Positions 2,903 to 43,269 of a DNA stretch of 43,560 bases are shown piece after piece. The DNA is from a virus. The first letter of the stretch is position 1. The number at the start of each line of letters is the position of its first letter. The position numbers were made by a program, and so were the translations under genes. The stretch is taken from positions 1 through 43,560 of IMG/VR virus record IMGVR_UViG_3300017527_000399, one strand, 5' to 3'. The notes under the pieces are model-generated. The model made no database searches. It saw only the letters and a list, made by a program, of their open reading frames with translations, and was not told where the DNA came from.

Positions 2903-3258
2903 ACAAAAACTATGAAAGGATGACACGGGTATACAGACTCTTTGCTGTGGGGGATTACGATTTCTCTGAGAAAGCATTTAATGATATGTATGCTTACGAA
3001 ACCCATGGAGAAGGGGGATTCGGGAAGATATTCACCCCTACAGACAACGGGTATTTTATTGGAAAAAAACTACTAAACATCACAGTATCCATGTGGATGG
3101 AACGCATGAACACCCCCGGGTGGTACTACTTCTTAAAAGAGTTATATCAAGAGTTCCCTACGTGGTGGTTAGACAAGATTTTCAAGAATGTTATTAACAA
3201 GAAACGCAAATTCTATCAAGAACATGGGATTGAGTTTGACGAAACTTTTAAACAATAA
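2899..3258 (+). CDS. Hypothetical protein between TerL and portal
   Basis: This 119-residue product is rich in aromatic residues (for example GWYYFLKELYQEF and TWWLDKIFKNV). It has no signal peptide or clear membrane span and no recognised fold. The ATGA overlap with the preceding peptide sets the start. Its place between TerL and portal suggests a packaging- or head-related role, but that is inference from position only. Confidence 0.6.
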   Translation: MNKNYERMTRVYRLFAVGDYDFSEKAFNDMYAYETHGEGGFGKIFTPTDNGYFIGKKLLNITVSMWMERMNTPGWYYFLKELYQEFPTWWLDKIFKNVINKKRKFYQEHGIEFDETFKQ

Positions 3259-3376
3259 GAATGTTGAGGGACATATTTATAAAAGCGACCTTGAACGATG
3301 GATTGGTGTCCCCCTTACATACCAAAAATATCTTGAATTAAGGGAAGAGCTGGAACATGAAACTAACAGAAATTGA
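3224..3376 (+). CDS. Possible small protein overlapping portal start
   Basis: The frame extends from 3188 to 3376; the ATG at 3224 gives 50 residues. The part after the upstream stop (KSDLERWIGVPLTYQKYLE) looks like a natural amphipathic sequence, and without it the 98 bp before the portal gene would be unexplained. It overlaps the upstream gene by 35 nt and the portal by 20 nt. The start is uncertain. Confidence 0.4.
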   Translation: MGLSLTKLLNNKNVEGHIYKSDLERWIGVPLTYQKYLELREELEHETNRN

Positions 3377-6387: not shown

Positions 6388-6747
6388 ATGAAAAGATTAA
6401 TTATTCTAGTATTAATCGTTTTCTTAGCAACCCCTGCATTTGCAGAAATAAAAGAAACCCAAAAGAACCAAATCTACAACCAGCCCGGAACGAGTTATAA
6501 AACAACCGCTATCAGGGAACACACCCATCCTTATGAAGACACCTATCTAAGCAACACCGATAACCAGAGAACAGGTGCCGAGGCGGGTGTAGGCGTGGAT
6601 TTATTACTTTTCAAGTTCGGGGAAAACGCTAAGAACCTAAAGAAAGTCAAGTTAGAATTAAAGAAAGACCTTATTGATATGGACAGAATGAGCGGATACC
6701 TGGTTGCAGAAGTAGATGTTTCCAGTGTCTTTGCTTTTCTGCAGTAA
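6388..6747 (+). CDS. Exported protein of the head cluster, unknown role
   Basis: The 119-residue product begins with a textbook Sec signal peptide: basic MKR, a Leu/Ile/Val core and a cleavage site after ATPAFA (about residue 19). The mature part has a Lys-rich helix (about 80-95) and ends VSSVFAFLQ. It lies directly before the scaffold gene with an AAGGAGAAAA ribosome site. A signal peptide is unexpected this deep in a head cluster. This is the first of a dozen such genes. Confidence 0.75.
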   Translation: MKRLIILVLIVFLATPAFAEIKETQKNQIYNQPGTSYKTTAIREHTHPYEDTYLSNTDNQRTGAEAGVGVDLLLFKFGENAKNLKKVKLELKKDLIDMDRMSGYLVAEVDVSSVFAFLQ

Positions 6748-7517: not shown

Positions 7518-8492
7518 ATGGCAGTAGGTAATAGTAGTTTTACTACCTTAATTACCACTACTTTACAGAATCATGGTAAAGAGATATTCGATGCTATCTC
7601 AACAAACAATGCGTTATATTGGATGTTAAGACAAGCAGGCAATATCAAAGTAGTTGGTGGTGGTAGGAAATTCACTCATCCGATTATCTACAAAACTAAC
7701 CCTTCATTTGCGATGTATTCTAAGTTGGACACCATTGGTCTTAACGTGACCGATGCAATCACAAGAGCAGAGTATGATATCAAAGTTGCTGCGGGTTCTA
7801 TTGTTTTGTCTGATGTAGACTTAGCGATGAACGCTGGCAATAAAGAAAGATTACTCGAACTTGCTGATGTTAAAAGGTTAGAAGCTGAGATTTCAATGTC
7901 CGAGTTAATGGGCGACCAGGCTTTTGGAGATGGTACAGGCTCAAACGACTTCGGCGGGTTACAGTTTTTAATCCATGAGACACCAACTGGTCAAAGTAAT
8001 GTCGGTGGGATAGATTGTACCGCTAGTACAGCATTAACGTATTGGCACAACTATACCAACACATCGGCAATTACGGCCTTCAATACATCCGATACAGGGG
8101 TAAAAGCGTGGAATGATATCTTAAATAATACAATTTACGGGCGTAGAGGCCCGCGGGCTGTATTTACGACTAAGACAATCTACGGTTTATATGAGATCGG
8201 ATTGACGAGCAATATTCGATATGCTCAAACAGACCTTGCAGATGCAGGGTTTAGACACCTTCAATACACAACGTTACCAGTACTTTTCGATGATAATTGT
8301 CCTACGGGCAATACGTACTTCGTAGATACTGATAGCTTATGGTTGCAGGTATTAGCACAAGGGAACATGAAAATGTTCAAATTCCAAGAAAAAGATGACC
8401 AACTTGCGAAATCCGCATTAATGGCTTTGTACGGTAATTTAACCACAGGGTCTAGGAGAACGCAAGGGGTTCAAACTAACACAACGGCTTAA
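7518..8492 (+). CDS. Major capsid protein, HK97-like fold
   Basis: The 324-residue product resembles podovirus/P22-group coat proteins. It has an N-terminal segment NALYWMLRQAGNIKVVGGGR leading into beta strands, then a long helix-rich spine (LADVKRLEAEISMSELMGD). Near the C terminus is FKFQEKDDQLAKSALMALYG, typical of coat proteins of this type. There is no signal peptide. The ribosome site AAGGAGTTAGCAA is good. It follows the scaffold and precedes an exported decoration-like protein. Confidence 0.9.
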   Translation: MAVGNSSFTTLITTTLQNHGKEIFDAISTNNALYWMLRQAGNIKVVGGGRKFTHPIIYKTNPSFAMYSKLDTIGLNVTDAITRAEYDIKVAAGSIVLSDVDLAMNAGNKERLLELADVKRLEAEISMSELMGDQAFGDGTGSNDFGGLQFLIHETPTGQSNVGGIDCTASTALTYWHNYTNTSAITAFNTSDTGVKAWNDILNNTIYGRRGPRAVFTTKTIYGLYEIGLTSNIRYAQTDLADAGFRHLQYTTLPVLFDDNCPTGNTYFVDTDSLWLQVLAQGNMKMFKFQEKDDQLAKSALMALYGNLTTGSRRTQGVQTNTTA

Positions 8493-8501
8493 GGAGGAAC
8501 A

Positions 8502-8987
8502 ATGAGAAAATTACTTATTTCTTTATTTGCCCTCCTATTCGTTGCAGGAGTGGCATACGCAGGTACAATCTGTGACCCTTCAGCAGGCCCTTGTAGAGAA
8601 GTAACATCCTATTATAACAGTAGCTCGTCAACTACGTTGACTGCGGGTATGGTTGTTATCTGGGATACGGACGACTCTACAGGAGATAACGATAATTACG
8701 TCGATGTTACAACGACATCTGGTACCGGCCCTGTCGCTGGTATAGTTCTTGTCGGTGCAGCAGTAGGAGCAGACGGGATTATGGTTACAGACGGAGTTAC
8801 GACTGTTACAGTTCCTTCTTCCGGTGTCGGTTCTGACATCGTAGCTGGAACGTTCCTTTGTACTTCAGGAACAGCAGGAACAGCGCGTTCTTGTCCTTCT
8901 TCGGGGGTTGACAAGGGATTACAGTTTGGTTATGCAACAGCAACCGCATCAGGCGGTTCTGTTCTAGCAAACATAGACTGCGAGTAA
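8502..8987 (+). CDS. Decoration-like protein with a Sec signal peptide
   Basis: This 161-residue protein has a clear signal peptide (MRKLLISLFALLFVAG, cleavage after VAYA near residue 20). The mature part is Gly/Ser/Thr/Val-rich beta protein with LTAGMVVIWDTDD and TGPVAGIVLVGAAVG, reminiscent of head-decoration proteins encoded right after coat proteins. Two Cys pairs (ICDPSAGPC and LCTSGTAGTARSC) could form disulfides outside the cytoplasm. The ribosome site AAGGAGGAACA is strong. The decoration role is inferred from position and composition. Confidence 0.72.
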   Translation: MRKLLISLFALLFVAGVAYAGTICDPSAGPCREVTSYYNSSSSTTLTAGMVVIWDTDDSTGDNDNYVDVTTTSGTGPVAGIVLVGAAVGADGIMVTDGVTTVTVPSSGVGSDIVAGTFLCTSGTAGTARSCPSSGVDKGLQFGYATATASGGSVLANIDCE

Positions 8988-9044: not shown

Positions 9045-9057
9045 TTTGAAAGGGTAT

Positions 9058-10311
9058 ATGTTCTGGATATTTGTACTCACGATACTAGGGACTAATTTAG
9101 CACCGTTCATATTTTATGGGTTAGATATCTGGCATGCACAAGGGTTTTGGGTACAGACAGGGATATTTATATTATTCACGTTATCGTTCTTTTATAAAGG
9201 GGTACCTACTCTTAAAAACAAACCACTCGGATTATTACACGGCTGGATAGGGTTAAGTGTGGGGGTATTCTGTTTTCTTGCTCAGGTAAAGGGGAAGTAT
9301 GATTTACAACATTTTCTCCCTTATTTCAATCTGCTTTGTTTACTTATCTTCTATAAGCTCATCGTTCAATATTTGAACAAAGAGAAGGTTGAGAAGATCT
9401 TAGAGTATATGCGTTGGGGGTTAATCGCAACGTTATTTGTGTGTGTATTACAATATTTCGGTTTAAGCCAATTTTTCATATTCTTATTAAAAGACCACCC
9501 CCAATTTCATGAATACTGGAACAACCCTGTCAACGGGTTTATCGGGAACGGAACGCATCTAGCGGGATTCCTCGCTATGTGTATACCGTTACTATTCATC
9601 AAGAAGAAGAAGGAGAACTGGTTTGTATTAGGCTTAACGTGCCTTATTTTACTGACCGTAACGGGAGAGCACAAAAATGATGTGGCTGTTTCAGGTATTA
9701 TTACTAGTTTATGTGTCGGCGCTTATCTACTTTACTTTAAAAGAAGGAAGGCGTTCTATATAGCTCTCCCCCTAGCGGTAGTAAGCCTACTCGTGTTAAC
9801 CCTTATAAACAAAGATTTATTTTACCCACATGGGCGAATCCAGTGGTGGAAGTATTACTACCCGTTATTTAAATCTCACGCAGTAACAGGGATAGGGTTA
9901 GGTGGGATAAACATCATCTATAAGCAAACCTTATTCCCTGATTTACGGCATTTACATTTAGAGTATTACCATTACGCGCTTGAACTAGGAATCATCGGGT
10001 TAATTTTAATTATCAATGTCATATATACATTTTTTAAAAATAGGGTTTCAGACCACACTTCAATATGCCTTAAAGCTATTGTGTTGGGTTTTTGTATCAG
10101 CTGTATTTTTAATTACACTTCGCACCTTTGGCTACCTTCTATTTACGCTATGTTCGCATATGCCTCGGTGTATGCAATCAGAAATGAGGAAATAAATGCT
10201 GTCAACACGCAAAGCAATAAAGGATCACGTACTCTCCACAACCCGCCAAGAAAGTTCGCAAATAGGGTCACTCGTCGAAGAGTTCATAAATCTCACCTTA
10301 AGAGAAGTTGA
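9058..10311 (+). CDS. O-antigen ligase/polymerase or O-OTase-like membrane protein
   Basis: This 417-residue polytopic protein has about ten hydrophobic segments. It shows features of the WaaL/Wzy/PglL (Wzy_C) superfamily: NGFIGNGTHLAGFLAMCIPL (159-178) and, after a long loop, TGIGLGGINIIYKQ followed by RHLHLEYYHYALELGIIGL (297-315). In that superfamily this loop carries the transfer site. These enzymes move lipid-linked glycans to lipid A, to a growing polymer or, as O-oligosaccharyltransferases, to exported proteins. ATG 9058 with AAAGGG upstream is preferred to TTG 9046. The last 38 residues are out-of-frame reading of the adaptor gene, a sign of insertion into the morphogenesis cluster. 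Confidence 0.75.
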   Translation: MFWIFVLTILGTNLAPFIFYGLDIWHAQGFWVQTGIFILFTLSFFYKGVPTLKNKPLGLLHGWIGLSVGVFCFLAQVKGKYDLQHFLPYFNLLCLLIFYKLIVQYLNKEKVEKILEYMRWGLIATLFVCVLQYFGLSQFFIFLLKDHPQFHEYWNNPVNGFIGNGTHLAGFLAMCIPLLFIKKKKENWFVLGLTCLILLTVTGEHKNDVAVSGIITSLCVGAYLLYFKRRKAFYIALPLAVVSLLVLTLINKDLFYPHGRIQWWKYYYPLFKSHAVTGIGLGGINIIYKQTLFPDLRHLHLEYYHYALELGIIGLILIINVIYTFFKNRVSDHTSICLKAIVLGFCISCIFNYTSHLWLPSIYAMFAYASVYAIRNEEINAVNTQSNKGSRTLHNPPRKFANRVTRRRVHKSHLKRS

Positions 10312-11176
10312 ATCCCCAGGTTGGGCGTTTAGAAAAGAAATCCATCATCGATGGTCATGGTTAAAACGCAAGACTACTTTTACCACCACGGCTTCGACAT
10401 CAGAATACGTGTTAGAGAGGGATATCAAAGACGTTGCTATCGTCACCCAACGAGAATCCCCAACCAAGATATACCGTGTTACAGACGAACAATTCCTCAA
10501 ATACGAGCCCGAACCTACTGATACGGGGAACCCTGTACTTTACAGGTTATGGGAAATATCCGGTGTAGGGACTAAACTTTCTACTGCAGACACGATAGAT
10601 GTGGTATCGAGTTCTACTTCCGACGATAACGACAGCGATTTAGCGGTAACAATATGGGGGTATGTAAACGGTATTCTTCAGTCAGAGAGTTATGTGTTAA
10701 ACGGTACGACCACGGTTACAGGTTCCACCACGTTTGATGCAAGAGATATCTTTGTTTCCAAGAGCAAGAACACCACGGGGACGATAACGATTACTGCAGG
10801 TGCGACCACACTCACTACGTTAGGAAAGGAAGAGCGTAACCCTATCCACAAGGTCATGGATTTATACCCTATTCCAGGCAGTGCGATGACTATTTACATT
10901 CAATACTACTCTCATTTGAGGGAATTAGTTAGAGATAGCGATGTCCCGCAATTCGACCCGAACTGGCATTATGTTATAAGGTTAGGTACTTTAGCCAAGG
11001 TCTACCAGTTTTTAGGGAAAGAGAACGATTTCACCACAACACAAGCGTTATATTCAGCGAGTGTCAGAGCGATGGTTAATGCTGATCGGGGGGTAAGCGA
11101 TTTTATCCCCAGGCTAGAAAGACACAGGTTCAGACAGTTTCCTCATATCAGGAGGTCAACAGCCGATGTTGCGTAA
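10196..11176 (+). CDS. Head-tail adaptor protein (SU10-adaptor-like)
   Basis: The 326-residue product begins with helices (EEFINLTLREVESPGWAF) typical of podovirus adaptors that dock under the portal. The middle (about 110-215) is a Thr/Ser-rich beta domain of a kind inserted in SU10-type adaptors (TIWGYVNGILQSESYVLNGT). It then returns to helices (DPNWHYVIRLGTLAKVYQFL). No signal peptide is present. GAGGAAATAA precedes the ATG. It overlaps the upstream membrane-protein gene by 116 nt; since this N terminus looks native, the overlap comes from extension of the upstream frame. Confidence 0.8.
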   Translation: MLSTRKAIKDHVLSTTRQESSQIGSLVEEFINLTLREVESPGWAFRKEIHHRWSWLKRKTTFTTTASTSEYVLERDIKDVAIVTQRESPTKIYRVTDEQFLKYEPEPTDTGNPVLYRLWEISGVGTKLSTADTIDVVSSSTSDDNDSDLAVTIWGYVNGILQSESYVLNGTTTVTGSTTFDARDIFVSKSKNTTGTITITAGATTLTTLGKEERNPIHKVMDLYPIPGSAMTIYIQYYSHLRELVRDSDVPQFDPNWHYVIRLGTLAKVYQFLGKENDFTTTQALYSASVRAMVNADRGVSDFIPRLERHRFRQFPHIRRSTADVA

Positions 11177-13019
11177 ATGTTTAGTATTCTTATTGTTTAC
11201 AACTTTATGTTACGCACAAAACCCTAAGTTAATCGGATATCCACCCCAGACTATTATGGGATTCCGCGGGTTAGATACACGTACCAGCGCACCGTTATTA
11301 CAGGACGGACGAGCTTCGGATTTAAAAAACGTTAAATTATCCCGCAGTTTTGATTTAGAGAAACGCAGAGGGTACGACCCGGTAGATGACACACTAGACG
11401 ATTTAGATATAGATTCTCCTGCGATTAACGGGATATTCTATATGGAATATTCTAACGGCAATGAACGGATTTACGCGTTTGTCGGGAAGAAATTAAAGTA
11501 CGATTCAGGGACAGCATGGACGGAAGTTACTGATTCACCTGAAGGGCATAAAGTAACGGGTATCACCACAGGCAAGAACAACCAGTGGCAATGTATCAGC
11601 GCGTTAGATTACGCTGTCTGCACGAACGATACTGATTTACCGTTAAAAATAGATTCTACCCCTGAATACTCTGATTTAGATTTATCTGATTTAAGTGATG
11701 CCGTAACTAAAGTAAAAACGGTTATATGGTATAAAAACTATTTAGTTTTAGGGAATACCGTTGAGGCGGGGACAGAGTACCCTACGCGTGCACGATGGTC
11801 GAATGTCGGTACGATACAGTCTTGGACGGATGAGGATTATATCGATATAGGCGCACTTGCGGGAGATGAAATTGTAGGGTTTGCCGAGTTATACGGCGAC
11901 CTTTACGCTTTCTTAAGAAACTCGATTTACAAAGCGTCTTTTGTAGGAGGGGATGATGTCTTTACCGTTAATAAAGTCATTGAGAACATCGGTTCGATTG
12001 CTAGGGATTCGATACAAACAATCCTCTTGGAAGATAACCGCCGTGCCATTATTTTTCTTGACGAAGATAAGAGGGTATATTTATTCAACGGCGCTACGAT
12101 TACAGATATCGGATGGATTATCCAACCGACACTCGACAATCTCAACTCGTCACGAATCCAATATTCCGTAAGCACGTTTGACGGGGATTCTTACTATCTC
12201 TCGTCCAGTACAAGCGGTGTAACGGAGAACGACAGTATTTACGAGTTTCAGACAGAGGTCGGCGAATGGACTAAACATACTGATATCAACGCCAATGCGT
12301 TTGGTCAAATCAAAGATTCCAGTGTTGTAAAAACCTATTTCGGGAACTACGACGCGCATGTGTATTGGTTAGATAACCCCGATTATACATCAGACGGCGG
12401 TGATGGGACAGGATATGTCGGTGTAGTTGAATCTGTAGGCACGGTCAATACCCGCACGATAACAGGAGCACAGTTCATTAAAGACTCTACCCCTGGGTTC
12501 AGCACAACCCAACTGACAGGATGTTTATTCAAGATAACCTCAGGGACAGGGGCGGGAGAAGAACAGGTTATTGTGTATAACACCTCAACGGGTGTTGCCG
12601 TAGCCACAGCGTTCACCACTACCCCGACGACAACGAGTAATTACTCGATAGGTGCGATAGATGCCGCGTATACCACTAAATGGTACGATTTCGGGGATTC
12701 CCCAAGACTTAAAAACTTCCGTAAATTATTCCTTTGGGGTGAAGAATCTACAGGGGATGAAGTCATTGTAAGTTATTCTGTAGATTTCGGGTCAACGCTA
12801 GGAAGTGAAGCCAAGAACCTTAGTCCATCAACATCGAGTTTATGGGATTCAGCGTTATGGGATATCGGTGTCTGGGGGACAACAGGAGACAAGTTTTATA
12901 CGACTTTACTTAGCGGGTACGGGCGGATGATAGAGTATAAGTTTGAGAACGCGGATATCAACGAAAACTTTCATTTATACGGGTTTCATATGTTAGCGGA
13001 CGTGATGGATGTGGAATAA
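11166..13019 (+). CDS. Tail nozzle/stabilisation protein with signal peptide
   Basis: The 617-residue body resembles P22 gp10/T7 nozzle-type beta-propeller proteins that close the short tail. After GFRGLDTRTSAPLLQDGRAS it contains RARWSNVGTIQSWTDEDYID and LYGDLYAFLRNSIYK, hallmarks of such proteins. Preceding this is a Sec-type leader MLRKCLVFLLFTTLCYAQ (1-18). A signal peptide on a tail nozzle is abnormal because nozzles normally assemble on cytoplasmic heads. A C-terminal part (about 430-490, GTGAGEEQVIVYN) resembles a small beta domain. The start overlaps the adaptor stop by 11 nt. Confidence 0.82.
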   Translation: MLRKCLVFLLFTTLCYAQNPKLIGYPPQTIMGFRGLDTRTSAPLLQDGRASDLKNVKLSRSFDLEKRRGYDPVDDTLDDLDIDSPAINGIFYMEYSNGNERIYAFVGKKLKYDSGTAWTEVTDSPEGHKVTGITTGKNNQWQCISALDYAVCTNDTDLPLKIDSTPEYSDLDLSDLSDAVTKVKTVIWYKNYLVLGNTVEAGTEYPTRARWSNVGTIQSWTDEDYIDIGALAGDEIVGFAELYGDLYAFLRNSIYKASFVGGDDVFTVNKVIENIGSIARDSIQTILLEDNRRAIIFLDEDKRVYLFNGATITDIGWIIQPTLDNLNSSRIQYSVSTFDGDSYYLSSSTSGVTENDSIYEFQTEVGEWTKHTDINANAFGQIKDSSVVKTYFGNYDAHVYWLDNPDYTSDGGDGTGYVGVVESVGTVNTRTITGAQFIKDSTPGFSTTQLTGCLFKITSGTGAGEEQVIVYNTSTGVAVATAFTTTPTTTSNYSIGAIDAAYTTKWYDFGDSPRLKNFRKLFLWGEESTGDEVIVSYSVDFGSTLGSEAKNLSPSTSSLWDSALWDIGVWGTTGDKFYTTLLSGYGRMIEYKFENADINENFHLYGFHMLADVMDVE

Positions 13020-13287
13020 ATTATTAATTATATTATTAGTTCTAGTTCTTTGCGGGGCGAGGATGGAGAAACCCTTCACGTTTACCGATTTATCCGATGA
13101 GAAACAAATCCAGAAACTCAACAGGATTTTAATAGATTTACAAAACATTATTAACGGGCGGTTAGAGTTAGATCTTGTCACCACATCGAAGGCAGACCCT
13201 AATGATGGCGAGTTCTGGTTAATCCAGACAGGGCCGAATGTACGCATACAGTATAGAGGGAACAATCATACATTTACAACAAAGTAG
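13009..13287 (+). CDS. Small exported or anchored protein
   Basis: The 92-residue product starts MWNKLLIILLVLVLCGARM, a hydrophobic leader with a Cys at residue 15; LVLC is not a strong lipobox, so export, anchoring or lipidation are all possible. The middle is helical (SDEKQIQKLNRILIDLQNII) and the end (GEFWLIQTGPNVRIQYRG) resembles small tail-associated phage proteins. ATGTGGAATAAA makes the start overlap the previous stop by 11 nt, exactly as at 19723. Confidence 0.65.
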   Translation: MWNKLLIILLVLVLCGARMEKPFTFTDLSDEKQIQKLNRILIDLQNIINGRLELDLVTTSKADPNDGEFWLIQTGPNVRIQYRGNNHTFTTK

Positions 13288-13294
13288 GGGAAAT

Positions 13295-13783
13295 ATGAAA
13301 TTAACACATTTATTTTTAATCCTAGCGTTACTGAGTTATGCGGGTGCTCCGAGCAGACCAAACACTTTTAGTGCGGGGACAACCATCGACTCGGATGAAG
13401 TCAATGACGATTTGAATACGCTTTACAACTATTTATCCGCAGGGGTAGACTCGTTTGAAGACTTCTCGATTGTCAATGCGGACATCAGCGCTAGTGCGGA
13501 TATTATTGCAAGCAAGTTAAATCTAACCACCATAGCACAGAACATCACGAATACGGGCACATTCTCAAATACAGGTAACGTTTCAATCGTTGGCACAGTC
13601 GGAGTATCGAGTTCTCTTACATCAACCACCACCACGTCGGTAGGATGGACAATCCAGAAAAGCGCTAACCAGGAGTGTAATACCACGTGTACCGCAGGTT
13701 GTGGGTTCGGGTTTGATGGGAGTACAATAGTAAACTGTAGTGACGCGACAGCAGACGCGTGCTTATGCCTAGGGAGTTCATAA
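13295..13783 (+). CDS. Tail fibre-like exported protein, paralogue 1
   Basis: The ATG at 13295 follows AGGGGAAAT; an open frame continues upstream to 13238, but the leader MKLTHLFLILALLSYAGA makes 13295 the better start (162 residues). The mature N terminus (FSAGTTIDSDEVNDDLNTLY and IVNADISASADIIASKL) is typical of phage fibre or neck-appendage proteins. It aligns with the next gene. The C-terminal 40 residues carry six Cys (for example CNTTCTAGC), consistent with disulfides in an oxidising compartment. A TAATG overlap links it to the next gene. Confidence 0.72.
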   Translation: MKLTHLFLILALLSYAGAPSRPNTFSAGTTIDSDEVNDDLNTLYNYLSAGVDSFEDFSIVNADISASADIIASKLNLTTIAQNITNTGTFSNTGNVSIVGTVGVSSSLTSTTTTSVGWTIQKSANQECNTTCTAGCGFGFDGSTIVNCSDATADACLCLGSS

Positions 13784-14943
13784 TGAAAAAATTACTTATT
13801 TTATTTCTCTTACTATCCCCACCTTGTTTTATTAGTGATGCTGTTGCAGGCCCCCCGGCGAGGATTTACACTTACACGTCAGGGACAACTATTCTTTCAG
13901 CACACGTTACGGCAAATGAGGACGCGGTGTTCGACTACCTAACCGCGGGTGTAGATACTTATGCGGACGGAACGATTTTAAATGCAGATATAAGCGCAAC
14001 CGCAGATATTGATGAGACTAAAGTCGATTTATCAACTATTTCTCAGAACACAACGTTCACGGGAACACTAGATTTTTCAGGAGCAACGATAACGGCACAA
14101 ACCACCTTCGCTGATTTAGTAGCGACAACCGCAGATATTAACGGTGGAACAATAGACGATGTAACAATCGGAGGCGTTTCTGCGGGAGTGGCTACGTTTA
14201 CTTCTATAACAATGACGAACGCGGTCACAGAGTTCTCTACAGACGGGACTCTTGCCGGAGATTCTGATACTGCCATACCAACAGAGAAAGCAACAAAAAC
14301 ATATGTTGATGCGATGCTGAGTACAACCTCTTATACTTCCAATGACACGTGGACTTGTCCAGCAGGAGTGACAAGGGTATATATAACGATGGCTGGCGGC
14401 GGTGGAGGTGGTGGCGGTGGTGAGAACGGTCAATACGGCGGTGGCGGTGGCGGTGGTGGTGCCTATACCATAGATACCCCCCATACAGTTGTTCCCACGA
14501 CAGGATATGCCGTAGAGGTAGGTGCTGGCGGTGCAGGTGGAGGGGCAGGTTTAGACGGATCTGCTGGGGGTGAAACGAGGTTTGATACTTTATATGTAAA
14601 AGGTGGAAGCGGCGGTAGTGCGGGAAAATCTGCAGGTTCAGTTGCAGACGGCCCAGGCGGTACAGGCGGGACAACATACAATACAGGCGGAACGAAAACA
14701 GCAACGGTCGGGGGCGGTATTCCTGGCTTTGCGGGCGGTGCAGGTGCGGACGGTGATGGTTCTGGATATCTTGGTGGCGGTGGTGGAAGCAGTTTAAGTG
14801 TTGGTGCAACAGGCGCTGATGGCGGCGGTGGTGCTGCAAGCGGAAGTGCAGGAGTAACAGGTAGTGGTGGCAGTGGCGGAGCAAACGCTGGTTCTGGTGG
14901 TGCAGGTGGTACTGGAATTGTAATAGTTCAATACGTCTTATGA
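13783..14943 (+). CDS. Glycine-rich tail fibre with signal peptide, paralogue 2
   Basis: This 386-residue protein starts MKKLLILFLLLSPPCF with a cleavage site after SDAVA (about residue 24). The N-terminal module (YTSGTTILSAHVTANEDAVF and ILNADISATADI) matches its upstream neighbour. From about residue 185 the segment SNDTWTCPAGVTRVYITMAG leads into a very Gly-rich region with runs of 8-9 Gly (about 206-386). Gly-rich domains of this kind form polyglycine-helix receptor-binding tips in some phage fibres. The start is set by TAATG plus AGGGAG. It is probably a receptor-binding fibre. Confidence 0.8.
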   Translation: MKKLLILFLLLSPPCFISDAVAGPPARIYTYTSGTTILSAHVTANEDAVFDYLTAGVDTYADGTILNADISATADIDETKVDLSTISQNTTFTGTLDFSGATITAQTTFADLVATTADINGGTIDDVTIGGVSAGVATFTSITMTNAVTEFSTDGTLAGDSDTAIPTEKATKTYVDAMLSTTSYTSNDTWTCPAGVTRVYITMAGGGGGGGGGENGQYGGGGGGGGAYTIDTPHTVVPTTGYAVEVGAGGAGGGAGLDGSAGGETRFDTLYVKGGSGGSAGKSAGSVADGPGGTGGTTYNTGGTKTATVGGGIPGFAGGAGADGDGSGYLGGGGGSSLSVGATGADGGGGAASGSAGVTGSGGSGGANAGSGGAGGTGIVIVQYVL

Positions 14944-22236: not shown

Positions 22237-22608
22237 ATGAGAGGTTTAATTATCGGGTTAGTTCTGTTCGGGTTGGTGACATTTTCTTTTGCCGAGGAGT
22301 ATACGGGGAAAGCAGAAAATATTACGGCTACGGAACGAGGGGTTTCGATAGAGATTGTTATTGTGGACTCTAGGGGTCAAGAAGTCTACCGAAGACAGAC
22401 CAATATCTCCACAGGAACAAAGACACCCGAAGAGACAGAGGACGCTATTAAAAACATCGTAGAACGAACCACTCAAGAAGTCTATGCCCATATTGAAGGC
22501 GGGAAAGCCGTTGAGGCGAATAAGACCGAATTAGAGGCGTTTAGCTATAAGTGCAAGGTTTATGTTGCCCCCGACTTGAGACCAGTAACGAGGGATACAC
22601 GTGACTAA
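22237..22608 (+). CDS. Exported small protein
   Basis: The 123-residue product has a signal peptide (MRGLIIGLVLFGLVTFSFA, cleavage near residue 19). The mature part is a beta/alpha mix with VSIEIVIVDSRGQEVYRRQT and a helix ETEDAIKNIVERTTQEVYAH. It is not recognised. AAGGAGGAAAG precedes the start. It lies between the tailspike and lectin genes and may be a fibre-associated factor. Confidence 0.68.
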   Translation: MRGLIIGLVLFGLVTFSFAEEYTGKAENITATERGVSIEIVIVDSRGQEVYRRQTNISTGTKTPEETEDAIKNIVERTTQEVYAHIEGGKAVEANKTELEAFSYKCKVYVAPDLRPVTRDTRD

Positions 22609-23431
22609 TTTGGTTAAAGCAACACTGGTTATTTTCTTATCTTTAATTCTTTCTGCGTATAACTACTGTTTAGATTCCAGGTGTGTCGGGTGCTGGTACA
22701 TGGAATCTTCCGCAACGGAGACGGACGAATCAGGGAATAACGAAACGTTAAGTGAATCGGCGGGTGACGATATCCCTGCGTCCGCTACAAAGAAGTTTGG
22801 GACATATTCAAGGGATTGGGAGAACTCAGGCGGGGAAAACGAGTACCTTTACCATGCAGATGGCGGTTCAACCGATTTAAACGGCGCAAACCAAGATATA
22901 GTTATTTTAACATGGGTAAGGGTTGAAACAGACAATGGAGCGATTAACGATTTAGTCAGTAAGTACGATTACGGTGATGGGAATAAGCAGTTTGATTTAC
23001 GAGCAGATATGTCTGATGACACCTTTATGTTTCGGCTAAGCAATGATGGCAGTTCTAATAACGATGTCTATGGTGAAGCGGTAGTAACAGCGGGGACATG
23101 GGTACATTTAGTCGGATATTACGATGACAGCGGAAGTGATTTAACCTGTTACTATGACAACACAGAGTGTGGTAGTCCCGCGTCTTATACAGGGGGGATG
23201 TATGATGGGAACGAAATCTTCTCCGTAGGGATGTATTGGAACAGCGGAACTGCGGCACGACCCTATGACGGGTTGATGGACGACATTGCGGTGTTTGATG
23301 AAGCAATAACAACCGTAGAGTTGGGGGATATCTATAATTACGGGTTAAAAGGACGGGATAGGAGAATAATTGTTGTTCGTCAGGCTGAAGCAACAAGACT
23401 CTGGAAGAAAATCTTTAAATATTACCAGTAG
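22601..23431 (+). CDS. LamG/concanavalin A-like lectin, exported
   Basis: The 276-residue product begins at GTG 22601, overlapping the previous stop by 8 nt, with a hydrophobic leader (LVKATLVIFLSLILSAY). The body is a LamG-type jelly-roll: DIVILTWVRVETD, then GTWVHLVGYYDDSGSDLTCY, ending in PYDGLMDDIAVFDEAITTVE, the characteristic last strands. LamG domains bind sugars or proteins. It is a likely virion adhesin or fibre tip. Cys residues in the leader region and at CYYDNTEC may pair. Confidence 0.78.
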   Translation: MTNLVKATLVIFLSLILSAYNYCLDSRCVGCWYMESSATETDESGNNETLSESAGDDIPASATKKFGTYSRDWENSGGENEYLYHADGGSTDLNGANQDIVILTWVRVETDNGAINDLVSKYDYGDGNKQFDLRADMSDDTFMFRLSNDGSSNNDVYGEAVVTAGTWVHLVGYYDDSGSDLTCYYDNTECGSPASYTGGMYDGNEIFSVGMYWNSGTAARPYDGLMDDIAVFDEAITTVELGDIYNYGLKGRDRRIIVVRQAEATRLWKKIFKYYQ

Positions 23432-24318: not shown

Positions 24319-25413
24319 ATGAAAAAATTATTAATCTTATGTATCCTCCTTTTATCCACCACGCTCGTATTTGCTGCAGGAGCCAAAGATAGAAGGATTA
24401 GTGATGATGACGGAGATGTTTTAAATATTAACTCTGATGGTACGTTACCTGTTTCAATAAGTGGCGATGTTACCTTAGAAAACGGAGAGTTAATCGACAA
24501 CTCCACTGATGGCACGATATGTTTACAAGGAGCAGGTGGGACAAATAACGAGGATATATGTTTTGGTTTAGAGTCAATATCTAACGAGATAGTATTAGAT
24601 TCTAATACTAGTGCAACAAGAATAAACTCTGATTTTACAATGCGATTTTCAGACAACATAGCGGCTCAGTGGGGTGGTGGTTCTGATGCTCTAATGCTAT
24701 GGACTGATGTTGGGAATGATAATTTACAATTAGCTATAGGCGTTGGGTCTGCTGCCGATAGTGGTTATTTTAGTCTTATGGAATATGCAGACAGAACAGC
24801 CGCCAACCGTTCCCCTTCAGGCACATCTGCTAATCCTGTATTAAGGGTCTATTCGAGTGATGCGACGGAAGCGAATGACTATATTGAGATGTATCATGAC
24901 CAAGGAAAAGGTATTATTACTGTTGGAACAGGATCAGTGACCTTAAATGCTAACAGTAATGGAAAAATAATATTTCAAGACGGAGGTTCTAGCTTATTTA
25001 ATGTTGTAACAGATGCAGCAGGCGATCAATCTATGTTTGCAACAGAAGATGTTGGTGGAAATCAAATCATTATAACAAATGACGGTAATTCAACTAAAGA
25101 CCACGACCATGCTACCCAAACCAATCCAACAGTTTACATTCAATCAGATACCGACCCAGATACTGATAATCAGCAATGGGGAAGTCTTTCACATGACCAG
25201 ACAGATTTTATCATAACAGGGGATGCGGGAGATACTAAAATAACCGATAACCTTGTTGTAACAGGATTAATTGTTACTGCTCCCTACTCGGGTGACCCTT
25301 GTACCGCAGCTAGAGAAGGAGCTATCTTCTGGAATACGTCAGCGAATGAACTTTGTGTTTGTGATGGGACTAATGATGTAAGAATTAAGGATGCTTCAAC
25401 CGCATGCTATTAA
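24319..25413 (+). CDS. Exported fibre-like protein
   Basis: This 364-residue protein has a signal peptide (MKKLLILCILLLSTTLVFA) and one KDRRISDDDGDVLNINSDGT module. A long Ser/Thr/Asn/Asp-rich beta region follows (about 60-310), similar in composition to the middle of the tailspike. The C terminus has four Cys (DPCTAAREGAIFWN, LCVCDGTNDV and a terminal CY). Domains of that last type are found in secreted or fibre proteins. It is probably a second fibre or spike arm. Confidence 0.72.
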   Translation: MKKLLILCILLLSTTLVFAAGAKDRRISDDDGDVLNINSDGTLPVSISGDVTLENGELIDNSTDGTICLQGAGGTNNEDICFGLESISNEIVLDSNTSATRINSDFTMRFSDNIAAQWGGGSDALMLWTDVGNDNLQLAIGVGSAADSGYFSLMEYADRTAANRSPSGTSANPVLRVYSSDATEANDYIEMYHDQGKGIITVGTGSVTLNANSNGKIIFQDGGSSLFNVVTDAAGDQSMFATEDVGGNQIIITNDGNSTKDHDHATQTNPTVYIQSDTDPDTDNQQWGSLSHDQTDFIITGDAGDTKITDNLVVTGLIVTAPYSGDPCTAAREGAIFWNTSANELCVCDGTNDVRIKDASTACY

Positions 25414-25427
25414 AAAGGAGGAGAAAA

Positions 25428-25784
25428 ATGAAGTTTTTATTAACCCTTGGATTAATCTTTTTATTAACTATTCCTTGCTTTGCAAGTGATATTAATCAAT
25501 CAGAGGTAAGACCAGATGTATCTGTATGGCGTCTCGATACAGTCAAGTTTTTAGCTTTCACGGAGACCGCTGAGATTACTTATCGCAAAGGTTATATGGA
25601 TAGCGGGAATTTCATTGCTATTGGCGGAGAGGTTAATATTTTATTTCAAAACATAGAAGATAACCCTGAAACTCCTGAAGATGAATCAAGCAATGAATTT
25701 ACTCAATTAATTAACCTTATTAACAATAACGATAATATTAAAACGTCAGTAACACAGGCAGTACGGGTTAAACTAGGTATCTAA
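25428..25784 (+). CDS. Exported small protein
   Basis: ATG 25428 follows AAGGAGGAGAAAA, giving 118 residues with a signal peptide (MKFLLTLGLIFLLTIPCFA). The mature part is not recognised; it has an acidic stretch (EDNPETPEDESSNEF) and ends SVTQAVRVKLGI. It is the last of the exported late proteins. A TAATG overlap leads to a small membrane protein. Confidence 0.68.
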   Translation: MKFLLTLGLIFLLTIPCFASDINQSEVRPDVSVWRLDTVKFLAFTETAEITYRKGYMDSGNFIAIGGEVNILFQNIEDNPETPEDESSNEFTQLINLINNNDNIKTSVTQAVRVKLGI

Positions 25785-37469: not shown

Positions 37470-38471
37470 ATGAGATATTTCAGTATGTTTTCAGGAATAG
37501 GAGGGTTTGAACTTGGGATACGACAAGCCGAAATTAAATCCAAAGATAGCTCCAACAGTAAGAGCGGAACATCACAGCACCTTAGACGTTCACTTTGTAT
37601 TGGTTTCTCCGAAATCAACAAATACGCAATCCAAATCTACAAAAAACACTTTAAAGGACATAAAAACTATGGAAACGCAAGAGACATTGTTTGGGAACAA
37701 GTGCCGGACTTCGACTTTCTCGTTGCCGGATTCCCTTGTCAATCTTTTTCAATCGCAGGAAAGAGAGGCGGATTTGACGATACTAGAGGAACTTTATTCT
37801 TTGAAATCGCAAGGGCTTTATCCGTTAAAAGACCTAAGCTATGCCTATTGGAGAACGTCAAAGGATTGTTATCACACGATAAAGGGGCAACCTTTGGAAC
37901 CATCCTTGCAACCCTTTCTGACTTGGGGTATTTTTTGCAATGGCAGGTACTTAACAGCAAGGATTTCGGTGTCCCACAGAATAGGGAACGAGTGTTCCTT
38001 ATCGGACATCTTAGAGGAACAAGTAGACCAGAAGTATTTCCTCTCTCCCAAAGCAGTAAAGGCAATCTTAAATACTCAGGGGGAGTCATTTCAGCCAGAG
38101 AACAGTGGCTCAAAGACGGAAAGACAAACAGCCGAAACTTCTCGCAAGGACAAAGAATCTACAGCGAAGAAGGGATAAGCCAGACACTTGCGGGTAACGC
38201 TGGTGGACAAGGGGGAAAGACCGGACTATACCAGATAGATAAAATAAACAGAGCTGTGCGAGCTGGCGGTCGTGGAAGCAAGACAGAAAAACACAGGTGG
38301 GATTTAGTTGGCGGAATCAGACGACTTACTCCTACAGAATGTGAAAGACTACAAGGATTTCCCGATGGATGGACAGAAGGGGTAAGCGATACCCAAAGAT
38401 ATAAATGTTTAGGAAATGCGGTTACGGTTAATGTGGTTCAAGCAATTATAGCGAGACTTGATAAAGAATGA
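37470..38471 (+). CDS. C5-cytosine DNA methyltransferase
   Basis: The 333-residue product has all main motifs: FSGIGGFELG (7-16, SAM binding), GFPCQSFS with the catalytic C90, ENVKGLL (128-134), QNRERVFLIGH (170-180), a target-recognition region (about 190-290) and CLGNAVTVNV near the end. It methylates cytosine in a specific DNA sequence, probably to protect phage DNA from restriction. A second protein-like frame overlaps residues 67-236. No partner restriction enzyme is seen. Confidence 0.93.
   Translation: MRYFSMFSGIGGFELGIRQAEIKSKDSSNSKSGTSQHLRRSLCIGFSEINKYAIQIYKKHFKGHKNYGNARDIVWEQVPDFDFLVAGFPCQSFSIAGKRGGFDDTRGTLFFEIARALSVKRPKLCLLENVKGLLSHDKGATFGTILATLSDLGYFLQWQVLNSKDFGVPQNRERVFLIGHLRGTSRPEVFPLSQSSKGNLKYSGGVISAREQWLKDGKTNSRNFSQGQRIYSEEGISQTLAGNAGGQGGKTGLYQIDKINRAVRAGGRGSKTEKHRWDLVGGIRRLTPTECERLQGFPDGWTEGVSDTQRYKCLGNAVTVNVVQAIIARLDKE
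37669..38178 (+). CDS. Protein encoded in another frame within the methyltransferase gene
   Basis: From ATG 37669 (AAAGGA upstream) this frame codes 169 residues; the stop-free frame begins at 37507. The C-terminal part NGRYLTARISVSHRIGNECS followed by LSDILEEQVDQKYFLSPKAV resembles, from memory, a phage protein often found near cytosine methyltransferases (a YLT...LSxILE...KYxLS pattern). The whole stretch is inside the methyltransferase gene in the +1 frame. Motifs VI and VIII of the enzyme lie in the overlap, so both frames seem constrained. Function unknown. Confidence 0.55.
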   Translation: METQETLFGNKCRTSTFSLPDSLVNLFQSQEREADLTILEELYSLKSQGLYPLKDLSYAYWRTSKDCYHTIKGQPLEPSLQPFLTWGIFCNGRYLTARISVSHRIGNECSLSDILEEQVDQKYFLSPKAVKAILNTQGESFQPENSGSKTERQTAETSRKDKESTAKKG

Positions 38472-39411: not shown

Positions 39412-39660
39412 ATGAGAATAAAAGACATACTTGCAAGACACAATGTAGTGAAAACCCCTGAATTAACAAAAGATTTAGTCAACTGGGTCATTACTCAAAA
39501 AAGAGCTGACCGAGCCAAGTTTTATTCACGGCTTAAAAAATTAAAAGAAATTCTTTTAAGCGATTTAGACCTACGCTCTTCATCTGCTATTTCACTAAGT
39601 CTTAAGTTAAACCGATTTATTGAACGAGAACAAAAATATCTACAAAAAATGGATGGATAA
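39412..39660 (+). CDS. Hypothetical basic helical protein
   Basis: ATG 39412 after GGGGGTGAAAAAC gives 82 residues, helical and basic (TKDLVNWVITQKRADRAKFY). Flanked on both sides by structured elements (E4 and E5). It is a candidate RNA- or DNA-binding protein, by charge only. Confidence 0.6.
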   Translation: MRIKDILARHNVVKTPELTKDLVNWVITQKRADRAKFYSRLKKLKEILLSDLDLRSSSAISLSLKLNRFIEREQKYLQKMDG

Positions 39661-39806
39661 GGGGGGCTAAAAGTTCTTTGAATATAACAACAACCAACAA
39701 TAGTTGGGTCAGAAGTTATCATTCTGATTTCCTTGCCTTTCGGCATTGGAGAGAGAGCGACGTTGCCTGACTAGCGAAAGGTCAATGAGCCACGGTAGCC
39801 CCCTTT
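39659..39806 (+). ncRNA. Structured element E5
   Basis: AAGGGGGGCTA (39659-39669) pairs over 11 positions with TAGCCCCCTTT (39796-39806), with one G-U pair. Inside are CCAAC-AATA-GTTGG, TCAGAA/TTCTGA and TGCC-TTTC-GGCA hairpins. It begins at a stop codon (TAA) and is followed by AAAAACAT. It is the largest of the family and directly precedes the glycosyltransferase gene. Confidence 0.6.
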
Positions 39807-39826
39807 AAAAACATGGAATATTATAT

Positions 39827-41140
39827 ATGATTGAATACATTTACATACCTATAATTTTATTACTCTATATCAGGCAATATAAATTCTGTCAGGCGATAGA
39901 CGATCCCGTTCCGCGGGAAGGATACTTAGTCGAGTTCCCCCGTAAAGTAGATCCGTCATACTATGATAAGCGTAAACCTTTACTTTGGACTATTACCAAC
40001 ATAACCGTATTTATTTTCACCTGCATAGCGATACATTTATTATTTGATTGGAGAGTTGCATTACTCTACGCCGTCCATCCGTGTAACACACAGAGCGTGG
40101 TATGGGGTAGGACAGGGAATTATTACATGTCTACGTGTTTATTAACCCTCATGGCTCTTCTCAGTCACGGGGAATGGTGGGGGATGCCGTTTTACTTAGC
40201 CAGCCTACATTCAACACTGAACGGTTTACCCCTGCCGTTTCTAGCGATACTCAACCCCATGTATTTATGGTATTTTCCTATTCTGGCGTTGTTCTTATTT
40301 GACCCACGCGGTAAGTTCAGGACACATTTCAAAGAGAGGGTGAAGGGTCATGAAGGCGTAGGAATTAAAGCAGGTGTGTTCAGGTTAAGACATTTATTCA
40401 TTATCCCCAAGGTCTTAGCGTACTATTTAAGATTACAGATCTATCCTTCGAGGTTAGGTTTCTTTCACGAATTTGGCGAAAGAGAAGCCCAAGAAAAAAG
40501 CCTCGCCGTTCCAAACATCCATTTTATAGACTCTACATTATTTATTATTATCTGGGTTTATGTCGGATACCTTACAAACCCGCTGGCGTGTTTAGGCTGG
40601 TTCTTATTTACTGGTTTATGGTCTGGCTATATCCAACTAGGTCAGTTTGTGTCTGAGAGGTACTTACCTTTACCCAACGTATTTTATTGTGTTATTGTTG
40701 CGGGAGTGATACAGAACCCCGTTATATTCACGATCTTATGCACTCTTTACTTTGCTAGGTCTTGGGAGTACACGCCTGCTTATCGGCACAACCTAAACTT
40801 ATTTACTTATTCAATCAAATCATTCCCACACGCGTCCGGCAACCATACTAATTTATATTCATATTATCTACATAAGGACGAACCCTTAAAAGCGATCAAT
40901 CCCCTTTACCATGCTATTTTAAACACTTATGGAAACAAATCCTATTTATGGATGGAGTTAGCGAGCACTTACGGCAAGCTCCAGCGTCCTAGAGAGGCGT
41001 TAAAGTGTACCGAAAACGCGTTAGGGGAATGTTTTCCTAAAGACAAGGATACTTTAATCAAGCAAAGAGATGAGATCAAAGAGAAAGTAAGGAAGATCAA
41101 CGTCTTACAGACCCGCATGGAAAAAGAATTAACGCGTTGA
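39827..41140 (+). CDS. TMTC-like GT-C glycosyltransferase with TPR-like tail
   Basis: This 437-residue polytopic membrane protein has LLYAVHPCNTQSVVWGRTGN (79-98), the hallmark HPxxTxxVxW-GR motif of the TMTC/DUF1736 GT-C family, which in animals includes O-mannosyltransferases acting on exported proteins. An Asp pair (D25-D26) sits after the first membrane span, where GT-C enzymes keep catalytic acids. About eight spans follow. The C-terminal 90 residues (SYYLHKDEPLKAINPLYHAI; SYLWMELASTYGKLQRPREA) look like TPR repeats. Its stop overlaps a convergent gene by 12 nt. Substrate unknown. Confidence 0.75.
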   Translation: MIEYIYIPIILLLYIRQYKFCQAIDDPVPREGYLVEFPRKVDPSYYDKRKPLLWTITNITVFIFTCIAIHLLFDWRVALLYAVHPCNTQSVVWGRTGNYYMSTCLLTLMALLSHGEWWGMPFYLASLHSTLNGLPLPFLAILNPMYLWYFPILALFLFDPRGKFRTHFKERVKGHEGVGIKAGVFRLRHLFIIPKVLAYYLRLQIYPSRLGFFHEFGEREAQEKSLAVPNIHFIDSTLFIIIWVYVGYLTNPLACLGWFLFTGLWSGYIQLGQFVSERYLPLPNVFYCVIVAGVIQNPVIFTILCTLYFARSWEYTPAYRHNLNLFTYSIKSFPHASGNHTNLYSYYLHKDEPLKAINPLYHAILNTYGNKSYLWMELASTYGKLQRPREALKCTENALGECFPKDKDTLIKQRDEIKEKVRKINVLQTRMEKELTR

Positions 41141-41284
41141 CTTCCTCCATTTCCTCCATAAAGAAAGTAAAAAAACCCCTAAAGGCATATCCACCCCTAA
41201 CCGTTCACTTTCTTTTTTAACATCTTCCTGTAATTCGTTTTTCATCTCTTTTGTTACTCTAACCCCAATTACTTCTGTTTTCAT
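41129..41284 (-). CDS. Small ribbon-helix-helix-like protein
   Basis: The 51-residue product (MKTEVIGVRVTKEMKNELQE...) has a beta strand followed by two helices, as in Arc/MetJ-type DNA-binding proteins. AAAGGCGGAAAA precedes the ATG. It is the last gene of the leftward operon and overlaps the end of the glycosyltransferase gene. It could repress this operon or the glycosyltransferase. Confidence 0.58.
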   Translation of the reverse strand: MKTEVIGVRVTKEMKNELQEDVKKESERLGVDMPLGVFLLSLWRKWRKSTR

Positions 41285-41340
41285 TTTTCCGCCTTTCGGA
41301 TTATGTTTTTAATGTCCTCTAACATTTTTAAGTTATAGGG

Positions 41341-41544
41341 TTATACTAAAATAAGACCTTTAATAGAGACATCTTGTATATAATATCCTTGTTCGTCTTT
41401 ACCAATTACATCGCTTTGAAGTCCGACCTGTCTTGAGTGCAATATCTCCCTTCCCTTTCGTGGCAATTCATGGTTGTTTTTAAGACAGACTTCGTATGCC
41501 TCTATTTTCCCAATGTAATTTTTTTCTGTTCGTATCAATTTCAT
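41341..41544 (-). CDS. Hypothetical leftward protein
   Basis: The 67-residue product has a good ribosome site (AAAGGGGGATAAA). It is basic with a predicted beta/alpha pattern (IGKIEAYEVCLKNNHELPRK) and is not recognised. It is the third gene of the leftward operon. Confidence 0.55.
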   Translation of the reverse strand: MKLIRTEKNYIGKIEAYEVCLKNNHELPRKGREILHSRQVGLQSDVIGKDEQGYYIQDVSIKGLILV

Positions 41545-41555
41545 TTTATCCCCCT

Positions 41556-41741
41556 TTATTTTCCACCAAAAACAATACTCAATAAGATTATTAAACCACT
41601 CAATAAAATCACTATGCCCACGATTGCGCCTGAATCTGTGGCACTTTTTACTCTTTCCAACCTTATATATGCTTGATAAAGGCTGTCAGAAGCTCTCCGA
41701 CACTCTTTCCCGTGTTGATATAATAATTTATCGACTTTCAT
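41556..41741 (-). CDS. Small C-terminally anchored membrane protein
   Basis: The 61-residue product has a soluble helical N terminus (QAYIRLERVKSATDS) and a C-terminal span (AIVGIVILLSGLIILLSIVF). AAAGGAGGATTAA precedes the start. Tail-anchored layout fits small membrane regulators, antiholins or toxin-like peptides; no direct evidence. Confidence 0.58.
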   Translation of the reverse strand: MKVDKLLYQHGKECRRASDSLYQAYIRLERVKSATDSGAIVGIVILLSGLIILLSIVFGGK

Positions 41742-41755
41742 TTAATCCTCCTTTC

Positions 41756-42082
41756 TTAATAAACACAATACGCCCTCGTATAATCATTTTCAGGGATTCT
41801 GTTCTTGTCAACATAAATCGTTGCCCCTCTAGGGTCAGTCTGATAATAAATATATAACCCTAACTTCTTAACATACTCTCCTATTTTGTCATAAATAGGG
41901 TTTACCAAGTTTTCATATTCTCCACTGTCGCTGACTTCACCGTTGCAAGCCATTTCATAGATTCGGTGTAATTCCTGCCCTTTACGCCTTAACCAGTTGT
42001 ATTGATTGACGGTAATCTCTAACCGTTTGCAAGCACGCGCTCGTTGTCTGTTGTAGTATTCCCTTTCTGATTTGGTATACAT
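41756..42082 (-). CDS. Hypothetical first gene of the leftward operon
   Basis: The 108-residue product starts after AAAGGAGAAAAGAAAACA. It is charged at first (SEREYYNRQRARACKRLE) and could contain a helix-turn-helix (ITVNQYNWLRRKGQELHRIY), so it may be a regulator. It is the gene nearest to the divergent control region. Confidence 0.58.
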   Translation of the reverse strand: MYTKSEREYYNRQRARACKRLEITVNQYNWLRRKGQELHRIYEMACNGEVSDSGEYENLVNPIYDKIGEYVKKLGLYIYYQTDPRGATIYVDKNRIPENDYTRAYCVY

Positions 42083-42342: not shown

Positions 42343-42729
42343 ATGAATAACTGGGCTTCGTTTAATAGTTATAGCAATAAGGGCGACAAGGATTATAGAA
42401 GGTATCAAAGCGATACTGGGTCTTTAGATGCTATGCCTTATTGGGCTAGAAGTAGGCTTGCGGGGTCTAAAAATACTACAAGTAGAAACAAGAAATTAAA
42501 GTATGAAATAAAGATGCTCTTTGGTGGTTGTTGTTCTATTTGTGGATATGATAAGAACTTGGCCGCCCTAGACTTCCATCACAAAAGCAAAAAGAATTTT
42601 AGTATATCAGTAGCTGTAAATGGGGTTATTGATGATATATTCTGGAAAGAATTAGCCAAGTGTAAGTTAATATGTTCAAATTGTCATAGAGACTTACATT
42701 ACCCAAGTTGGAGGCAAGATGGGAAGTAA
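42343..42729 (+). CDS. HNH-type nuclease or zinc-finger protein
   Basis: The 128-residue product has CSICGYDKNLAALDFHH (C64, C67, H79, H80) and CKLICSNCHRDLHYP (C111, C114, H115, H119), the layout of HNH nucleases with structural zinc. HNH genes next to terminase genes often take part in packaging-site cutting. Its position just before TerS fits that. It could also be a free-standing homing nuclease. Confidence 0.78.
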   Translation: MNNWASFNSYSNKGDKDYRRYQSDTGSLDAMPYWARSRLAGSKNTTSRNKKLKYEIKMLFGGCCSICGYDKNLAALDFHHKSKKNFSISVAVNGVIDDIFWKELAKCKLICSNCHRDLHYPSWRQDGK

Positions 42730-42731
42730 CA

Positions 42732-42902
42732 GTGGATTTCAATATAATAATAATGCCCGATGGTACGGTAAAGAGAGTTGATAATATAAGAGACTTGCGA
42801 GAAGCGTATCAAGAGGCAAACGATTACACACGAGAAAACCTAAAGGGCGTAAAAGAAAGACAATCTTGCACAAGTTCAAGAAAACATGACCTTAACACCT
42901 AA
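42732..42902 (+). CDS. Hypothetical small protein
   Basis: The frame from GTG 42732 (after GGGAAGTAACA) gives 56 residues, starting MDFNIIIMPDGTVKRVDNIR then helical. An alternative TTG start lies at 42708. Not recognised. It overlaps TerS by 17 nt. Confidence 0.5.
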   Translation: MDFNIIIMPDGTVKRVDNIRDLREAYQEANDYTRENLKGVKERQSCTSSRKHDLNT

Positions 42903-43269
42903 ACAAAAAAAGTATGTAAAGAACCGATTCAACGGTATGAGCCGTACTGAAGCCGCAAAGGACGCGTATAACTGTAAAGACAAGAACGCACGGATCATAG
43001 GGTATGAATTAGACCATAACAAAGCATTAGCTCCCCAACTCTACTTAATAGCGCAGAAGATGGGATATGATCTAAGTGACGCGCTAGAAAAGCTAATTAC
43101 TCTTACAAACTCCAAGAATGAATCAATCCGTTTAAAAGCTGTTAATGATGCATTAGAATGGTTTGCCGGAAAAGAGCAGAAGATCACCACAAAGCAAGAA
43201 CTCACCCAAGAACAAGAACAACTCATTCAAAAAGGTATAACAGAAGCACGTAAGCAATACTATAACTAA
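42886..43269 (+). CDS. terS: Terminase small subunit
   Basis: The 127-residue product begins TPKQKKYVKNRFNGMSRTEA, the helix-turn-helix type start common in small terminases of the phage TerS families. Helical oligomerisation regions follow (SDALEKLITLTNSKNESIRL) and then a Gln/Glu-rich tail. TerS recognises the packaging site and delivers DNA to TerL. TerL is at the other end of the window, so a circular map places them about 1.5 kb apart. Weak ribosome site. Confidence 0.82.
   Translation: MTLTPKQKKYVKNRFNGMSRTEAAKDAYNCKDKNARIIGYELDHNKALAPQLYLIAQKMGYDLSDALEKLITLTNSKNESIRLKAVNDALEWFAGKEQKITTKQELTQEQEQLIQKGITEARKQYYN

Follow-up and report, generated by a model that had tools for sequence, protein, structure and literature searches.

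The window analysed here (43,560 bases) comprises an entire IMG/VR virus record. It holds a gene that starts with ATG and encodes a protein of 437 aa, identified through its open reading frame, a family alignment, hhalign and its modelled fold. The features that place this gene in the genome are the following:

39827..41140, plus strand, gene for a predicted phage GT-C glycosyltransferase with a C-terminal TPR domain
39655..39826, plus strand, structured intergenic RNA of 172 nt (predicted fold), immediately 5' of the GT-C gene
1232-2782, terminase large subunit
3357-5210, portal
7518-8492, major capsid
37470-38471, DNA methylase
42343-42729, HNH
42886-43269, terminase-small-subunit-like gene

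The RNA is predicted to fold with an MFE of -54.6 kcal/mol (z -4.4, 0/200 shuffles) and is closed by a GC-rich stem; a search of Rfam gave no match to it. Downstream, small minus-strand ORFs (41129-42082) are convergent with the GT-C gene. By E-value, the best match of the terminase large subunit is to ANMV-1 (3e-33, 27% identity), whose host is an uncultured archaeon, so that the assignment of a bacterial host is not certain.

Searched as a single sequence, the 437-aa protein had no match in PHROGs (none at E 0.1) or NCBIfam and nothing meaningful in a PDB sequence search, and Pfam returned only a sub-threshold TPR (E 0.01) and DUF7641. The latter (E 0.0045, below the cut-off) was dropped because no other family member has it. 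Nothing usable came from a tblastn of phages and plasmids, where a weak plasmid match (H21), annotated only as a tetratricopeptide repeat protein, was set aside; degenerate DNA motif scans gave zero or only chance matches. The relatives were found by steering an IMG/VR search with an alignment to the two strongest motifs and iterating it with real members. Synthetic decoy rows in the alignment only steered the peptide patterns scanned, and the real first row was used in tblastn to confirm each match; a generic TMTC consensus served as a probe alone and not as evidence.

The first relatives in viral contigs were L008 (35% identity, 2e-46) and L009 (26%, 4e-19). After iteration, full-length homologues were encoded by about 15 further IMG/VR phage contigs, some of which came up under several locus ids, and many of these genes adjoin terminase, portal or capsid genes. 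The phage proteins have ∼440-600 aa and share about 18-37% identity with the window protein; since homologues this diverged span the length of the ORF in so many other viral contigs, the ORF is not a chance one. In L018 (1621-3480) the gene is split: the GT-C part stops at 2553, a 116-aa ORF follows (2632-2982), and the TPR part is a separate ORF (2986-3480), which suggests a disruption or an inserted element. Neither the window protein nor, by tblastn, three divergent members found a relative among phage isolates (50,697 records in the latter search), so that, as far as the phage isolates and phage families searched go, all known members come from uncultivated phages. A literature search on phage DUF1736 and on virion signal peptides gave no matching report among open-licence papers.

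With regard to the architecture of the protein, two parts can be distinguished:

39827..40831, plus strand, GT-C membrane domain, residues 1-335 (AF2 model, VIA-align)
40790..41137, plus strand, TPR tail, residues 322-437 (profile matches to PDB TPR proteins, helix pairs in the model)

An AF2 model of the full protein, built with 11 sequences, reached a pTM of 0.77. Foldseek saw mainly the TPR tail in it, and the membrane domain was therefore folded separately (residues 1-335, 17 sequences), with a pLDDT of 81.2 and a pTM of 0.87. For both models Foldseek E-values were weak, with zero matches at E<=0.001. VIA-align placed Pmt4, ArnT, STT3 and PglB among the top rows for the full-length model, and for the membrane domain its ranks 1-41 were all GT-C enzymes or GT-C-fold subunits (Z 15.7 to 7.9), followed by a clear drop to a Z of 3.7 in the next row. 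The top row was Pmt4 (9i5k, Z 15.7, 253 aligned, rmsd 3.8), and further rows were Pmt1-Pmt2 (14.9), ALG12 (14.3) and ArnT (13.8), then OST, PglB, DPY19, AftD and Emb. By its modelled transmembrane fold, the 437-aa protein is a member of the GT-C superfamily, and the closest fold in these comparisons is that of the protein O-mannosyltransferases. The likeness to the fungal Pmts is one of fold, at ∼9% identity to the window protein, and the Pmts carry MIR domains, not TPRs.

The tail is sub-threshold in Pfam as a single sequence; the C-terminal positions of the family profile matched PDB TPR proteins down to 4e-51, and the AF2 model has helix pairs there. Related to the tail is the question of the side of the membrane on which it lies. 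The loop at residues 157-190 is strongly positive (9 K/R vs 3 D/E), as expected of a cytoplasmic loop; both the Asp pair in EL1 and the TPR tail would then be extracytoplasmic. By analogy with the TMTCs, the tail would lie on the same side as the active site.

Does this protein have cellular relatives? A scan of genome contigs with the 11-member family alignment gave no bacterial relative; a second, steered scan gave three bacterial GT-C+TPR proteins, L019 (Sumerlaeota), L020 (Desulfobacterales) and L021 (Deltaproteobacteria), with more in the same genomes. The phage profile matches these proteins end to end (hmmsearch 3e-32; hhalign 99.9%, E 5e-35, 407 columns). The consensus of the bacterial homologues in turn matches PMT_2 (1.3e-8), TMTC_DUF1736 (1.7e-5; 25.1 bits vs a cut-off of 27) and PMT (1.8e-4), whereas the phage consensus matches none of the three. 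Full-length TMTC homologues have also been reported in prokaryotes by Eisenhaber et al. 2021 (PMC7801869). Judged by sequence, the window protein belongs to a compact phage offshoot of these TMTC-like GT-C+TPR proteins of bacteria, which are uncharacterised.

All cellular relatives recovered were bacterial, and one may ask whether the gene is simply a host gene, either bacterial DNA misbinned as viral or a recent chance pick-up. This is very improbable. In L008 and L010-L015, seven phages in all, the GT-C gene comes immediately after the capsid gene and its one or two decoration-type neighbours and is co-directional with them; the GC content of the gene (40.9%) is close to that of the window (40.8%); and a tree calculated from 14 phage and 5 bacterial proteins unites all phage sequences in a single clade that excludes the bacterial ones (95/95), with the window protein grouped with those from capsid operons (93/92). 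The tree draws on few bacterial sequences, two of which sit on long branches. The earlier note had proposed such a phylogeny as a way to the donor lineage; it separated the phage clade and, the steered scan having given three bacterial relatives, did not single out a donor.

The conserved residues were counted over 15 usable phage rows, the window included, and 5 bacterial rows, and they were compared with the seven published TMTC motif definitions (PMC7801869). D25, D26, P85, W93, K195, Y200, P207 and R278 are invariant in the phage rows. The main sites are:

39899..39904, plus strand, codons of Asp25-Asp26, the first-loop acidic pair of motif M1, putatively catalytic (15/15 phage, 4/5 bacterial)
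40076..40120, plus strand, HPCNTQSVVWGRTGN stretch, residues 84-98 (Pro85 and Trp93 invariant in phage members)
40409..40411, plus strand, codon of Lys195 at the start of TM7 (15/15 phage, 3/5 bacterial)
40655..40663, plus strand, Glu277-Arg278-Tyr279, the ERY of motif M7, ERxxY (Arg and Tyr 15/15, Glu 14/15)

Asp25-Asp26 corresponds to M1, which in TMTCs is a DD in EL1 (PMC7801869), and M7 is kept, with its final Tyr in 14/15 phage rows and a Pro there in the window only. Three other motifs are missing: the YRP of M2 (SHKSYRP) is absent from the phage rows, the Arg of M3 (RxD) is lost, GR occurring in 1/15 (L044), and the Lys-Glu pair of M4 (KE(T/Q)xxT) is found in 0/15 phage rows vs 4/5 bacterial homologues. 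The bacterial TMTC-like proteins share with the phage proteins a colinear GT-C domain, the DD in the first loop, HP..W, AERYLYLP and the TPR tail; in contrast to them, they mostly keep YRP/RP (M2), the GR/R of M3 and the SKE of M4, and their TPR tails are longer. Animal TMTC1-4, the protein O-mannosyltransferases of PF08409, likewise combine a GT-C domain and C-terminal TPRs with the DD of M1 and the ER of M7 (PMC7801869); they differ from the phage protein, which does not match PF08409 and has lost M2-M4, and their acceptors, the cadherins, do not exist here.

The earlier note had described a TMTC-type glycosyltransferase with a typical motif, an acidic pair at residues 25-26 and a TPR-like tail. 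Its observations on the sequence hold, the ORF being exactly at the positions given, the motif being HPCNTQSVVWGRTGN at residues 84-98 and the tail being borne out by the profile and the model. The search with PF08409 that it suggested gave no match at the gathering score in the window protein, the whole record, the 11 members of the family alignment or the phage consensus; the GT-C fold that it expected was recovered by VIA-align. What stands of the assignment is the fold, the end-to-end homology to bacterial proteins and a lineage that includes TMTC-like proteins. Since PF08409 and motifs M2-M4 were checked and are absent, we do not file the protein as a TMTC; by its motifs it is a divergent phage subfamily and not TMTC proper.

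In TMTC models, M2, M3 and M4 bind mannose, phosphate and metal. Their loss may mean that the activity is altered or lost. A metal is dispensable for several GT-C enzymes with dolichyl-P-monosaccharide donors, and loss of the metal-binding Glu is therefore compatible with activity. The absence of M2, M3 and the M4 Lys-Glu pair across the phage family would nevertheless suit a degenerate, non-catalytic GT-C that has kept its fold as a membrane scaffold or superinfection-exclusion protein and has given up sugar transfer. We regard this as improbable, because 15 members, deeply diverged from one another, all retain Asp25-Asp26, Lys195 and Arg278, and several members have GT2 and sugar-epimerase genes as neighbours.

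The neighbourhoods of the gene also bear on the sugar donor. In L017, L042 and L040 a GT2 of the dolichyl-phosphate-mannose-synthase kind lies 3' of the GT-C gene (PF00535, E 6e-36, 9e-35 and 9e-30) and a radical SAM gene lies upstream of it. The cassette radical SAM, GT-C, GT2 occupies 42-4663 in L017, 6424-10575 in L042 and 8206-12785 in L040, the first two of these copies being close to terminase genes. L047 has a sugar epimerase/dehydratase gene directly 3' of the GT-C gene. A search of the window genome for a GT2 (PF00535) found none, and in this phage the donor would therefore have to be supplied by the host. In relatives the GT-C gene follows the capsid and decoration genes; in the window, whose GT-C gene is at 39.8 kb, this place is taken by 9046-10311. 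This gene encodes a polytopic protein of 421 aa with a weak match to Wzy_C (O-antigen ligase; E 3.6e-4, below the cut-off), and a comparison with phage isolates gave no relative of it. The earlier note had the GT-C gene standing alone, between a structured RNA and a convergent operon, as an accessory gene would, and did not know it as a standard phage gene. Its position is indeed such in the window genome, and in relatives the gene sits in head or glycosylation-type gene blocks; the gene does not belong to the standard repertoire, with no phage isolate and no PHROG at E 0.1, and rather than being a one-off accessory gene it defines a phage family with conserved neighbourhoods of its own.

Phage gtr clusters pair a bactoprenol glycosyltransferase (GtrB) with a membrane glycosyltransferase (GtrC) and modify the O-antigen (PMC3688519). 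Like the gtrABC seroconversion clusters of P22 and the Sf phages, the present family would be a phage polyprenyl-phosphate-dependent membrane glycosyltransferase, and in some relatives, the group B phages, a GT2 accompanies it in the manner of GtrB with GtrC. The enzyme might then convert the host surface: a glycan or lipid (O-antigen, teichoic acid or another envelope polymer) would be glycosylated in infected or lysogenic cells, so that the receptor is altered and superinfection blocked. The Wzy_C/O-antigen-ligase-like protein of the window, by its weak match, would be in keeping with this. We nevertheless consider such a role unlikely, if the most credible of the alternatives. The TPR tail, the nearest folds (Pmt4, Pmt1-Pmt2) and the nearest homologues (TMTC-like) point to protein acceptors. 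A gtrABC cluster has an adjacent GtrB-type GT2 and a GtrA flippase; in the present family a GT2 occurs in some relatives only and not in the window genome, among the neighbours scanned no GtrA-type flippase was recognised, and one group differs by having its gene at a head-operon site.

If the acceptors are proteins, which ones could they be? Sec-type signal peptides were called with a home-made rule (positive n-region, hydrophobic core, AxA-like site), not with SignalP; by this simple rule they occur in 15/72 window genes vs 1/69 in CVT22, 0/60 in ANMV-1 and 0/58 in CRP-5. In the head and tail region of the window, they are carried by 6388-6747, 8502-8987, 11166-13019, 13009-13287, 13238-13783, 13759-14943, 22601-23431, 24319-25413, 25404-25784 and others. 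The signal-peptide genes of the window include proteins with virion-structural and tail-fibre PHROG matches. Among the virion-type ones, 8502-8987 lies behind the capsid gene, the virion structural match of 11166-13019 (phrog_3287) begins at residue 28, i.e., behind the signal peptide, and 13759-14943 is tail-fibre-like. In relatives, spike- or fibre-like proteins with a signal peptide are found at 13498-13875 in L010, whose tail-spike start has one, 13406-15352 in L011, 11891-13042 in L012 and 10543-11292 in L014. A shared 'EEDGxPS'-like N-terminal stretch follows the signal peptide in L010, L011 and L014.

Because so many window genes carry signal peptides, several of them virion-type, exported phage proteins are the first acceptor candidates in the window phage, and as such they are plausible. 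They cannot be the acceptor in every member, since by the same simple rule signal peptides are nearly absent from the GT2-bearing group, and host proteins are therefore possible acceptors too. A bolder proposal, which we hold to be doubtful, is that some virion decoration, fibre and spike proteins are exported via Sec and glycosylated outside the cytoplasm by the phage TMTC-like enzyme. If it were true, some virion components would be made outside the cytoplasm, receive their sugar coat there and be added to the particle at lysis.

Whereas coding, family, GT-C fold, TPR tail, the conserved Asp pair and Arg278 and the gene contexts are shown by the results above, we infer the topology, activity, donor and acceptor of the phage GT-C as follows. 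It would be a polytopic protein of the inner membrane; its N-terminus would be cytoplasmic, and the loop with Asp25-Asp26 would, like the TPR tail, be extracytoplasmic. Its donor would be a polyprenyl-phosphate carrier loaded with a monosaccharide, by the host in the window phage and by the phage GT2 beside the gene in one group of relatives. The acceptor of the sugar would lie outside the cytoplasm, exported proteins that the TPR tail holds being the most likely one. For the window phage the best candidates would be its own signal-peptide proteins (virion tail and head-decoration-type), followed by host envelope proteins. Taken as a whole, this scheme is probable, and most likely the protein works as TMTCs or PMTs do, as an extracytoplasmic protein glycosyltransferase.

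What would these findings mean for phage biology? With them, the GT-C/TMTC-like protein glycosyltransferases gain a phage branch, whose compact version makes a minimal catalytic set (the Asp pair, Arg278 and Lys195) testable. They point to glycosylation of exported proteins by some phages, which is unrecorded in the phage families searched, and it also becomes testable whether signal-peptide-bearing virion proteins of phages are truly secreted. Finally, as candidate acceptors are few for a phage homologue, it could be a way to the substrate of the uncharacterised bacterial TMTC-like proteins.
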